From an uncultured Desulfobacteraceae bacterium (lineage in GTDB: Bacteria; Desulfobacterota; Desulfobacteria; Desulfobacterales; Desulfatirhabdiaceae): a stretch of DNA of 64,000 nt. The notes under the pieces are model-generated. The model made no database searches and had not been told where the DNA came from. It saw only the letters and a program-made list of their open reading frames with translations. The first letter of the stretch is position 1. Each line of letters starts with the position of its first letter. Position numbers and translations under genes: made by a program. The stretch spans positions 1-64,000 of the forward strand of contig CAJBLH010000030.1 of assembly GCA_903953895.1 (NCBI GenBank), in the 5' to 3' direction. Shown here in pieces: positions 3,931 through 7,920 of the stretch.

Positions 3931-4174
3931 CAACGCCGTAATAGTTTGTAGATTTCTATGAGATGTATCCGGGTTGTTCAATTAGTGCTGAGTCCGCCAC
4001 TTCCCTATTCGAATTCTCTGAGCTGTGTCTGCCTTTCTAAGTAGTTGAATGATTCCGAAGGCATCTTTTCTCGTTCTCCGTAAAGCTGTTTGTCGTTGTT
4101 ATCATGCTCACCTTCCGGATCTTCGATCTGGAAAATATTCGCGCTGCCCTTACCGGCGGGAAAGGAGACTGAAA

Positions 4175-4501
4175 ATGACTAGCGGAAAAGAAAAAAGACA
4201 AACGGATCGCTACGCGGTCGAAGCGCCTATTCTCTGCTCTTATTTCAATTTGCCTGTCAGCGCCAGCGCCAAGACCATCAATTTCAGCAGGGACGGCATG
4301 TATTTTGTTTCAGAGATGGAGTTTCATCCTGGTTCTGCTGTACTTATTCAGGTCAAGAACGGCGGTGTGCATCAGAAAATGCCGGAAAATACCGAAGGCA
4401 TGCGGCAGACAACGCTTGCCGAAGTCCGGTGGTGCAGGCGGGTTTCTGAAAAACCAACCCACTATCAAATAGGAGTGAAATACTATGAGTCCTGGTATTG
4501 A
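4175..4501 (+). CDS. PilZ domain protein (predicted cyclic di-GMP binding)
   Basis: This small 108-residue cytoplasmic protein is one PilZ domain. It shows the two ligand motifs of the family: RxxxR as RQTDR (R8 and R12), and the D/N-x-S-x-x-G motif as NFSRDG (N36, S38, G41). PilZ domains bind cyclic di-GMP and control motility, exopolysaccharide or secretion through partner proteins. The ATG at 4175 is chosen because AAAGGAG (4161-4167) precedes it; the frame is open upstream to 4049 but without family similarity. The gene converges on the STAS, cyclic-nucleotide-domain and ABC group on the other strand, so a functional link is possible but not shown. Confidence 0.82.
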   Translation: MTSGKEKRQTDRYAVEAPILCSYFNLPVSASAKTINFSRDGMYFVSEMEFHPGSAVLIQVKNGGVHQKMPENTEGMRQTTLAEVRWCRRVSEKPTHYQIGVKYYESWY

Positions 4502-4523: not shown

Positions 4524-4871
4524 TCATCTTGATGAGCCGGAGATCAGCGAGACGCCGTCTTCCAGCGACGGAAGAATTGGCAGGAAGGAATCAAAACCAG
4601 CGATTTCAAATACTTCTTTCACATAATCCGCCATGGCGCATAATACAATCCGGCCTGCTTCGAGTTTCAGCTTTTTAGCGGTCTTTACCACGACTCTCAA
4701 TCCTGCACTTGTGATGTAATCCAGTTTCTGACAATCCAGAATGATATTGTAAATGCCACTTTCTATGGTCTGAACGATGCGTTTGTCCAATTCCGTTGAA
4801 GAGCCGGAGTCCAGCCGCCCCGCAAGGCTGAAAATAGTTATCTCTTGGTGCCGTGTTTCAATGATATCCAT
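4524..4871 (-). CDS. STAS domain protein (anti-sigma factor antagonist type)
   Basis: The 115-residue product is a single STAS domain of the SpoIIAA/RsbV type. Such proteins act as phosphorylation switches that bind a serine kinase/anti-sigma factor or a membrane partner. The conserved loop DYITSAGLR supplies the likely phosphorylatable serine S55, followed by the usual amphipathic helix. AAGGAAT precedes the ATG. It is the last gene of a minus-strand run ABC transporter, cyclic-nucleotide-domain protein, STAS. No cognate kinase gene is nearby, so the partner may be encoded elsewhere, or the STAS domain may serve the ABC protein directly. Confidence 0.85.
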   Translation of the reverse strand: MDIIETRHQEITIFSLAGRLDSGSSTELDKRIVQTIESGIYNIILDCQKLDYITSAGLRVVVKTAKKLKLEAGRIVLCAMADYVKEVFEIAGFDSFLPILPSLEDGVSLISGSSR

Positions 4872-4910: not shown

Positions 4911-5438
4911 TCAGATGAGGCTGACACCGATTCTTTGCGTGCAAGCCTTGCATCCTTCGGAACGGTCGCTTAAAAAAAGTTCTTCCCAGTGATGAATGTT
5001 ACGTGCCACAGCATGGAAGATATTGGACATGAGCTGGGGATATTGGTTCATTACATGAACAAATTTATCACGGGAAATTATCAGGCAAGTTACCGGAGAG
5101 GATGCTTTCAGGGAAAAAAGTCTGGGAGAATTCCCGAGAAGTGTCAATGCGCCAAAAAAATCTCCTTCTGTATAATTTCGGATAATCGCCTCGGCACCGT
5201 TTTCGGTGCGGGTTAGCACCGCATCTCCGGAAATCAGATAAAACGCTTGACCGTCGTCGTCGTCTTGGGTGAACAGAAAATCCCCAAGCTTGAAATTTTC
5301 CCGCGTACACAGGTATGCAAATACTTTCAGCGTGTCAAGGGGAAGCGCAGAGAAAAAATAGATTTCCCTTAACACATTCAGATTTTGCTGAAATTCACAG
5401 GTTGGGCATGATTCACTTTTTTCCGCCGACCAGCTCAT
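4911..5438 (-). CDS. Cyclic nucleotide-binding domain protein with terminal CxxC pairs
   Basis: The 175-residue protein has a CAP/CNB beta-roll at about residues 30-150 and no DNA-binding domain, so it is not a Crp-type regulator. In the phosphate-binding cassette (FFGALTLLGNSPR, 94-106) the usual glutamate after FG is alanine (A97), while R106 is kept, so cAMP may be bound poorly or not at all. A CxxC lies at each end, C11/C14 and C163/C166, enough for a metal or disulfide site. I chose the ATG at 5438 because AAAGGAG is well spaced before it. This start overlaps the end of the ABC transporter gene by 26 bases, which implies coupled translation. Confidence 0.8.
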   Translation of the reverse strand: MSWSAEKSESCPTCEFQQNLNVLREIYFFSALPLDTLKVFAYLCTRENFKLGDFLFTQDDDDGQAFYLISGDAVLTRTENGAEAIIRNYTEGDFFGALTLLGNSPRLFSLKASSPVTCLIISRDKFVHVMNQYPQLMSNIFHAVARNIHHWEELFLSDRSEGCKACTQRIGVSLI

Positions 5439-7920
5439 ACAGGGCTCCTTTTTTGGCAATGAGTTCATCGTAAGATCCCAGTTCAATAATTTTACCTGCC
5501 TTCATCACCGCAACTTTATCATAATTGCGAATGATATCCAGGCGATGAACTACGGATATCAGCGTTGTTTTTCCTTTCCACCGGGTTTCAAGAAGATTCT
5601 GGATGCGGGTCTGGGACTTGTTGTCAAGCGCTGATGTGGCTTCGTCCATGATCATGATGCGGGGAGACTTGAGAAATGTTCTGGCAATGGCCAGTTTCTG
5701 ACGCTGGCCTCCGGACAGCTTGTCCCCTTTGCTGCCGACCTGAAACTGCATGCCGATTTCAACGATTGTTTCAAGAAAATCCTCTTCGATAATCAGTTGA
5801 ATGATGCTTTGGTTGATCGTATCCAGGGCTTTGGGGTTGGATGTTTTGATCTGGCCGAACAAAATATTGTTCATGATGGTCTGGTTATAAATATAATTGG
5901 AGAGCTGATAAAACGAGAAGGCGGCAGGAGCATCTCGCGTGATGCTTTCTTGAATGAGCGATCTTCCCTCCAGAATCATGCGCTCTAAGATGGCCGGCAG
6001 TGCAACCAGCTTGTGTTTTCCGGGTTCAAAGCGAAGGGCAAGCTTCAATAGATAATTTCGATCGATATCCGACAACTGAAGCAGTTTGGTGCGCTTGATC
6101 CGGTCTGCCAGCAGGATGGACTCATCCCATTCATCGAAGGAAATCGGGCTTTGTTCAAAAAAAACGGGATCAGGGGAAAGGCTGCCGAGAATATCGACAG
6201 TTTGCCTGGTAAGCTCAGCTCCGAGACTCAGCAGCGGCATTGTTAAATCCGCCCGGTTCAACAACTCCAGAAAATAGGAATTCTGGGGTAGGTTGTTTTC
6301 TGAAAAAGTGGGGTCGTTGGGTGTTCCCAGAAAAAGATTTTCAGCCACGCTGGAAAAATACAGATATTTGTTTTCATCGAAAAATTCGACATGGTCTGCC
6401 AGCTTCTCGCCATATTCCTGCTGAAAGTTTTCACGGACAATGATCAGCCGGGCTGCCAGATCTTCCTGTCGCTCCTTGTCGAGAATAGTGTTGAGGCCAA
6501 ATCTGAGTACATCCACAAAAATACCCGTCTGGTGCAGAACGGCGATTTTATCGTCGAGTGACGGCTGTTCCATGTTTGTTTCCACATCATGGATAGCCGC
6601 ATAGGAATATACCAGATTCTCGTCGATGGAGCCGGAAAAAATGAACGGGCTCTGGGAAACAAAGCCCATGTTGGTGATCAAATCTTGTTTGGTCAGATCG
6701 GCGACTTCCATCTCGCCTAACAGAATGTGGCCGCCCGAATACTTGTAAAGTTGTCCGATACACAGAGCCAGCGTACTCTTCCCGCTTCCGGAAAAACCGA
6801 CGAGGGCCAGGGTTTCTCCGGATTTCAAGGATAAATTGATGTTGTCGAGCAGTTGAATACCGGTATCCGTCACATAAGACAGCTCTTTAATGTCGATGCT
6901 GCCGGGAAGCAGTAAAGCTCGGCGGCCTTCTGGCTCGACGATGAACTCGGTCGGCGTGTCAAAATACTCCATGGTGCGTTTATAGCTGACCGATGCATCC
7001 ATATAGACCTGATAGAATTCGATCAGCTCTTTCCAGGGATCATACAGTTTTTCCTGAGCAGATAAAAACGCCACCATAGCGCCCAACTCAAGCTGCCCCT
7101 GCATGGAGAGATAACCCCCCAGAATAAAAATGACAAAAGGGCCAAGACTGACGAAAAAATTATTGGTGACTTTCACCCCCTGTTTGTAAAGGGTCCAGAT
7201 GATCCGGATTTTTCGCATCTGGTCGACCAGCGAGCCGAACCGCCGGTTTTCTAAACGAAAAGTGCCGTTTCCCTGAATTTCATGGATTCCGGAAATGGCT
7301 TCTCCGATCAGGCTGGATATCGTGCGGGTGCTGTCGACCCGTTGTTTGTTGGCTTTGTTGGCCCCGCGTTGCAGAATGGGGATGATGATCAGAATCACAG
7401 GATAGAGAGCCAGAGAAATAACCGCCAGAAGTGGATTCAAATATATCAGGTATCCGGCAAACGCCAGGAGCGTCATGATGTTGATGACCGGTGCGGAAAT
7501 GGCCAGACCGACGAAGCTGCCGGCGGTAGCCAGTTCGGTAACCAGGGCTGAAACAACCATGCCTGGCTGTGCTTTCCGGTAAAAATTCAGCGGCAGAGTC
7601 AGAATATGTGCGAACAAGTCTTTTCGCATATTGGCAAGCACATTTTCAGATATCCGGGTTTGAAGAATGGTGATCATGAATTTGAGACCACTGGCCAGAA
7701 GCACCGATACCAGGTAACAGCCGCAGTAAATTAAGAGAAGATCCATTTTTCTTAGCTTGATGGCTTCATTGACGATCCGCTTTTGCATCTCGAGGGGAAT
7801 CACTCTGGCAAAAACAGTGACGGAAATCAGCAATACCAGCACGACCTGAAGCTTGACGTTTCCGGGCAGAACCCATGAAAAAAGTGAGCGTTTGACAATC
7901 GCAATTTTTTCCTTCTCCAT
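5413..7920 (-). CDS. ABC transporter, fused permease-ATPase with a long insert in the ATPase domain
   Basis: This 835-residue half-transporter belongs to the exporter (ABCB/MsbA-like) class. The membrane domain spans about residues 20-320 and the ATPase begins near 340. Walker A is GFSGSGKST (375-383), the Q-loop glutamine is Q423, the signature LSGGQ is at 735-739, Walker B with E760 is IMIMDEATSALD, and the switch histidine is H792, so the ATPase should be active. Normally some 60-80 residues separate Q-loop and signature; here there are about 310. Two segments in the insert (511-532 and 667-689) resemble the region after the Q-loop (419-439). The gene overlaps the cyclic-nucleotide-domain gene downstream. 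The substrate is unknown. Confidence 0.88.
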   Translation of the reverse strand: MEKEKIAIVKRSLFSWVLPGNVKLQVVLVLLISVTVFARVIPLEMQKRIVNEAIKLRKMDLLLIYCGCYLVSVLLASGLKFMITILQTRISENVLANMRKDLFAHILTLPLNFYRKAQPGMVVSALVTELATAGSFVGLAISAPVINIMTLLAFAGYLIYLNPLLAVISLALYPVILIIIPILQRGANKANKQRVDSTRTISSLIGEAISGIHEIQGNGTFRLENRRFGSLVDQMRKIRIIWTLYKQGVKVTNNFFVSLGPFVIFILGGYLSMQGQLELGAMVAFLSAQEKLYDPWKELIEFYQVYMDASVSYKRTMEYFDTPTEFIVEPEGRRALLLPGSIDIKELSYVTDTGIQLLDNINLSLKSGETLALVGFSGSGKSTLALCIGQLYKYSGGHILLGEMEVADLTKQDLITNMGFVSQSPFIFSGSIDENLVYSYAAIHDVETNMEQPSLDDKIAVLHQTGIFVDVLRFGLNTILDKERQEDLAARLIIVRENFQQEYGEKLADHVEFFDENKYLYFSSVAENLFLGTPNDPTFSENNLPQNSYFLELLNRADLTMPLLSLGAELTRQTVDILGSLSPDPVFFEQSPISFDEWDESILLADRIKRTKLLQLSDIDRNYLLKLALRFEPGKHKLVALPAILERMILEGRSLIQESITRDAPAAFSFYQLSNYIYNQTIMNNILFGQIKTSNPKALDTINQSIIQLIIEEDFLETIVEIGMQFQVGSKGDKLSGGQRQKLAIARTFLKSPRIMIMDEATSALDNKSQTRIQNLLETRWKGKTTLISVVHRLDIIRNYDKVAVMKAGKIIELGSYDELIAKKGALYELVGGKK

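Follow-up and report, generated by a model that had tools for sequence, protein, structure and literature searches.

Probable internal amplification of a helical segment of the nucleotide-binding domain in a family of ABC exporters linked to a cNMP-binding-fold gene

The exporter gene and its surroundings

The window (the whole stretch of DNA analysed, 64,000 nucleotides) contains an open reading frame of 835 amino acids on the minus strand at positions 5413..7920, encoding an ABC exporter half-transporter in which a helical segment of the nucleotide-binding domain (NBD) appears to be triplicated. On the same strand lies a gene for a small protein of 175 amino acids with the cNMP-binding fold (4911..5438; PF00027, E 4.8e-18), referred to here as the partner. 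Its likely start is the ATG at 5438, which is preceded by AAGGAG, and the first 26 nt of the gene are shared with the ABC gene, whose end they cover. A gene resembling STAS anti-sigma-factor antagonists is also on the minus strand (4524..4871; PF01740, 3.8e-19; TIGR00377). A PilZ-domain gene on the plus strand (4049-4501), convergent with the STAS gene, is conserved in the closest relatives only.

The exporter combines an ABC_membrane domain and, C-terminal to it, an ABC_tran NBD in a single chain, with Pfam matches to PF00664 at residues 30-288 and to PF00005 in two stretches; the NCBIfam exporter models likewise match in two separate stretches. Based on the PF00664 match and the model helices, the transmembrane domain covers approximately residues 20-310 (6991..7863, minus strand, as for all parts of the gene), and by Pfam it is a single ABC_membrane stretch with no duplication matching that of the NBD. 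The N-lobe of the NBD, residues 341-430 (6631..6900), includes the Walker A sequence GFSGSGKST (375-383) and the Q-loop Gln423, while LSGGQ (735-739) and the C-lobe (5416..5718) include the Walker B sequence IMIMDE (755-760) and the H-loop His792, so that the set of ATPase motifs is complete. Judging by these domains and motifs, the protein is a type IV ABC exporter, specifically an ABCB/MsbA-like half-transporter.

The distance from Gln423 to LSGGQ is 312 residues, whereas 45 ordinary exporters from the same search have 55-57 (median 56), so the extra length is about 256 residues. The earlier note had reported over 300 residues in place of about 70, and an insert of 260 residues. The source genome encodes many ABC exporters, and a search with the insert profile found the insert in this one alone. 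Profile searches with the insert by itself gave no convincing match in Pfam or PDB, and a match to SMC_N was rejected as a by-product of the long insert separating the two lobes of the NBD.

The region can be divided into three units and a linker. Unit 1 (U1; residues 421-480, 6481..6660), containing PFIFSGSIDENLVYS and then GLNTI, is the post-Q-loop segment in canonical form, with the canonical start at the Q-loop. In one family member (L115/L156, G393:C3), the loop of U1 that follows the first ENILYS motif contains an insertion in which six residues, NCVDLG, are repeated in tandem. Unit 2 (U2; residues 485-570, 6211..6468) includes the invariant R496 within a preceding helix, then VEFFDENKYLYFSSVAENLFLG, N528, and an LSLG sequence with its glycine at 567. 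It is separated from unit 3 by a unique helical linker (residues 571-640, 6001..6210) that has a conserved LALRF-P-x-x-H stretch and was unlike any unit in the profile controls. Unit 3 (U3; residues 641-725, 5746..6000) includes the invariant R653, likewise within a preceding helix, YIYNQTIMNNILFG, N685, and G723, and runs on into LSGGQ, which is the canonical end of the segment. The strings SIDENLVYS (431-439), SVAENLFLG (524-532), and TIMNNILFG (681-689), which first drew attention to the repetition, are found where they had been placed.

Structure prediction was informative for the core and for part of the insert. A full-length AlphaFold2 model built with 17 relatives had a mean pLDDT of 58.9 and a pTM of 0.45, and an NBD-only model built with 70 sequences had a mean pLDDT of 71.1, with good values in the core and at residues ~549-649, including approximately 90 over most of the N-lobe. 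The linker is modelled as helices at 595-610 and 618-630 (pLDDT 75-93). Predicted helices follow one order in all three units, although confidence in both models is low across U1, the start of U2, and much the greater part of U3. In Foldseek searches against the PDB, the core matched only ABC exporters and NBDs, and nothing informative was returned for the insert.

Repeated units and the exporter family

Homologues with the same insert were sought, and 76 distinct proteins were found in two phyla. With the family alignment (51 proteins, then 76), blocks corresponding to U1 (405-484), U2 (485-580), and U3 (640-739) were compared profile to profile, giving probabilities of 98.8-99.2% for U2-U3, 95.8-96.4% for U1-U3, and 92.7-95.5% for U1-U2. 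The U2-U3 similarity covers about 83 columns and includes the preceding helix. The single-pair E-values of hhalign are not calibrated against a database, so reliance was placed on control blocks: pairs with no residues in common from the N-lobe, C-lobe, linker, and two transmembrane blocks gave less than 3.5%, and control values rose above this only for blocks with overlapping windows. When ordinary exporters were profiled over the segment that starts shortly ahead of the Q-loop and ends with LSGGQ, the profile matched U1 at 98.8% over 66 columns and U3 at 97.7% over 70 columns, extending through LSGGQ, while the match to U2 was weak (69%, 40 columns) and all control blocks were at or below 2%. 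These matches indicate two full-length-like copies and one that is more diverged. An HMM of the insert also matches a second time in most members, its U2 columns aligning to the U3 region of the same protein (best E 3.8e-7). An R-x-x-F type helix precedes U2 and U3 but is absent from U1, so U2 and U3 look like the later pair.

The units could instead be chance or convergent amphipathic helices in an insert that is an unrelated single domain, and the similarity is low enough to allow the argument: pairwise identity between units is just 11-16%, and in the window exporter itself only U2-U3 passes a within-sequence shuffle test (p~0.02), with U1-U2 and U1-U3 not significant. Across the family, the same test (p<0.05) is passed by U2-U3 in 72 of 76 members, by U1-U3 in 51, and by U1-U2 in 38; U1 is therefore counted as a repeat unit because of the profiles and not because of the window sequence alone. 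Coincidence is made very improbable by the gap between profiles of 95-99% and controls below 3.5%, by a register that is the same in nearly all members, and by the ordinary-exporter profile, which matches U1 and U3 directly and U2 weakly. The most conserved residues are also at equivalent positions, R496, N528, and G567 in U2 corresponding to R653, N685, and G723 in U3, with an Arg-to-Asn spacing of 32 in both. The extra ~256 residues thus very probably hold two further copies of the helical segment between the Q-loop and the signature motif, as the earlier note had proposed in suggesting internal duplication of the post-Q-loop segment. At most one copy per NBD can occupy the canonical place. 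A sequencing or assembly artefact, or two ABC genes joined by a deletion, would have only the unusual length in its favour and is refuted by the family, since close relatives (58-90% identical) and the 76 distinct proteins of two phyla align across the insert with the same architecture.

The insert profiles matched in 29 of 395 Desulfobacterota genomes and 31 of 397 Pseudomonadota genomes, and in none of the 148-149 genomes putatively assigned to each of Planctomycetes, Bacteroidota, Bacillota, and Actinomycetota. Plasmid matches were found in Sinorhizobium, Ensifer, Rhizobium, Shinella, Methylobacterium, and Azospirillum. The N-terminus of the family gene in S. meliloti 1021 (L123; NC_003078.1 834332-852919, at ~7336-7690) is out of frame compared to that of strain R14 (L122), and the open frame is 805 codons as opposed to 922 in R14.

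When the 76 members and 90 ordinary exporters were placed in a FastTree phylogeny from the transmembrane domain and NBD core, with the insert columns left out, all members formed one clade (support 0.998) that splits into Desulfobacterota (0.992) and Pseudomonadota (1.0) branches. The simplest reading of a single clade obtained without the insert columns is one amplification, which would have converted the segment between the Q-loop and LSGGQ into three tandem units in the ancestor of the Desulfobacterota/Pseudomonadota family. No name for the family and no solved relative were found. Full-text literature searches, which covered few subscription papers, contained no account of the family, whether sought by its architecture, by its link to a cNMP-fold protein, or by its locus, and this silence is weak evidence of novelty.

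The cNMP-fold partner and the loss of ATPase motifs

The association with a cNMP-fold protein is characteristic of the family. Counted from stop-to-stop open reading frames, the partner gene is directly downstream of the exporter, on the same strand and mostly overlapping, at 50 of 54 Desulfobacterota loci, and one of the four loci lacking it stops at a contig edge. It is directly downstream at 15 of 26 Pseudomonadota loci, and at five others (L125, L204, L205, L209, and L210) the cNMP-fold domain is fused to the C-terminus of the ABC protein, for a total of about 70 of 80 family loci with an adjacent or fused partner. Ordinary exporters were checked where the sequence extended far enough downstream, and none of these 84 has a cNMP-fold gene there. 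The insert is present without a convincing adjacent partner at about six Pseudomonadota loci (L121, L124, L191, L200, L201, and L203) and at L151 and L152 in Desulfobacterota.

The partner does not fit a CRP/FNR transcription regulator: it is 175 amino acids long, and Pfam found PF00027 only, with no C-terminal DNA-binding helix-turn-helix. In the window partner the phosphate-binding cassette is GALTLLGNSPRLF, where the Glu is replaced and the Arg is present. Among Desulfobacterota partners, the Glu is changed to Gly or Ala in 41 of 50 cassettes and the Arg is kept in 41 of 50. Both residues are found in three of four partners from rhizobia and Azospirillum, and the fourth has Asp for Glu and keeps the Arg. 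Since the window partner does not have the canonical Glu, it may bind no cyclic nucleotide.

Other neighbours are less consistent. Genes for HATPase_c_2 and STAS proteins follow the partner in some Desulfobacterota, at times with SpoIIE nearby (L015-L020, L126, L133), and are likely to constitute a partner-switch module tied to the exporter. The STAS gene is part of the module in a Desulfobacterota subset only; in the window it is present with no HATPase gene between it and the partner. In Pseudomonadota, 15 of 25 members are flanked by glycosyltransferase genes, and a metallo-beta-lactamase-fold gene occurs at 8 of 25 Pseudomonadota loci. At about 13 loci, a PqqD-domain protein (L014:10052-10501, minus strand) and an uncharacterised neighbour of 292 residues (L014:10425-11300, minus strand) are encoded near the exporter, mostly downstream and on the opposite strand. 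Of all these neighbours, the cNMP-fold protein alone recurs in both phyla, and no other was seen as a fusion.

The two branches of the family differ in the ATPase itself. Walker A, the Q-loop Gln, the signature, Walker B, and the His are complete in all 51 Desulfobacterota members, while none of the 25 Pseudomonadota members has the full set. What remains in these 25 is a Walker A in two, a Glu at the catalytic position in five, and a Q-loop Gln in one, although the alignment of the degenerate core is less certain with clades so far apart and single residues need care; a pattern search found the H-loop His and the signature in none of the 25. Mean identity in the NBD core is 0.61 in Desulfobacterota but 0.34 in Pseudomonadota, whereas for U2, the linker, and U3 it is 0.40-0.41 and 0.37-0.38, respectively. 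Conservation of the insert despite the loss of ATPase motifs suggests that it serves something besides hydrolysis, and argues that the insert does more than coupling. These Pseudomonadota members (L119, L120, L122, L192-L210) keep the transmembrane domain, the insert, and often the partner with the ATPase motifs gone.

A possible docking role and comparison with known systems

If these features are to be explained together, then the reading preferred here, to which a probability of about 50% is given, is that the cNMP-fold partner docks on the enlarged helical subdomain and regulates a homodimeric exporter. The type IV ABC exporter would be a homodimer because there is one such gene in the source genome. 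The arm coupling ATP hydrolysis to the membrane domain would be lengthened outward by helices of U2, the linker, and part of U1 or U3, and this extension could be the surface on which the cNMP-fold protein docks and exerts its regulation. The partner would then gate the exporter on receiving a signal, which in some Desulfobacterota may pass through the HATPase/STAS partner-switch pair. The cargo may be a surface glycan or a glycolipid or other lipid-linked molecule, as suggested by the gene neighbourhoods of Pseudomonadota only.

Alternatively, the copied units may alter mechanical coupling by touching further intracellular loops or the opposite NBD, with the cNMP-fold gene co-regulated rather than its product docked on the insert. 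In ordinary type IV exporters, the segment that was copied meets the coupling helices, and the aromatic stretch and Asn are kept in each copy, both of which fit such a role. It is nevertheless unlikely: the Pseudomonadota keep the insert without Walker A, the Q-loop Gln, the signature, the catalytic Glu, or the His, so a role in coupling hydrolysis cannot hold there, and the transmembrane domains have no matching duplication. Were the insert an arm for multimerisation or for scaffolding other cytosolic proteins, such as the glycosyltransferases of Pseudomonadota or the HATPase/STAS pair of Desulfobacterota, the cNMP-fold protein would be one of several clients. This would account for an insert that is constant while neighbourhoods change between phyla, but this is rather improbable given that the cNMP-fold protein is alone in being shared by both phyla and in being fused.

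The docking reading can be taken further for the Pseudomonadota. There, the membrane domain and the amplified coupling subdomain, serving as the arm on which a cNMP-fold regulator docks, would have outlived the ATPase, leaving a transporter or sensor dead as an ATPase and governed by a cyclic-nucleotide-binding domain instead of ATP hydrolysis; this extension is tentative and on balance doubtful. The ATPase-dead sister clade makes it testable what role an ABC exporter has without ATP hydrolysis. Family members are present in cultured, genetically tractable Sinorhizobium strains. The span between the Q-loop and the signature is nearly constant in ordinary exporters, yet one clade tripled the segment and kept it across two phyla. 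Together with its cNMP-fold partner, this clade would offer a naturally occurring example of an exporter regulated via its coupling subdomain.

Among known systems, MsbA and other type IV exporters (TIGR02203, Sav1866, TM287/288) have a transmembrane domain and NBD core like those of the window exporter, and the modelled NBD core aligns with the MsbA NBD 5idv at a target TM-score of 0.79. The best NCBIfam match is also MsbA_lipidA (TIGR02203); however, at 310.9 bits it is below the equivalog cut-off of 602, and the window exporter was not accepted as an MsbA lipid A flippase. The window family differs from MsbA-type exporters in its ~256-residue insert, its linked cNMP-fold gene, and its position in a clade of its own. 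MsbA2 of S. meliloti (SMb21191) exports an unidentified polysaccharide (PMC3687685, PMC12239276) and, like rhizobial family members, is encoded downstream of glycosyltransferase genes. SMb21188, of the same operon as MsbA2, is near 938 kb on pSymB (PMC3687685), while the S. meliloti family member, the only insert match in the pSymB record, is near 842-844 kb; this difference in position places MsbA2 outside the insert family. SMb20813, which has been termed an msbA homologue (PMC10945364), could be the S. meliloti member.

Partial matches to NHLM bacteriocin exporters were also below the cut-offs, with 237.9 bits as opposed to 853.3 for TIGR03796 and 223.9 as opposed to 709.4 for TIGR03797, so assignment to that type was rejected. 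NHLM-type peptide exporters associate with cNMP-binding domains as well, but in the window family this domain is either encoded by a gene of its own downstream or fused to the C-terminus of the exporter. UvrA, with its UvrB-binding and insertion domains, and Rad50 and SMC proteins, with their coiled coils, also have a domain inserted after the first lobe and ahead of the signature motif, which serves to bind partners or to make contacts at long range. In these soluble ATPases the inserts have unrelated folds, whereas in the window family the insert appears to be built from copies of the domain's own helical segment, within a membrane exporter.
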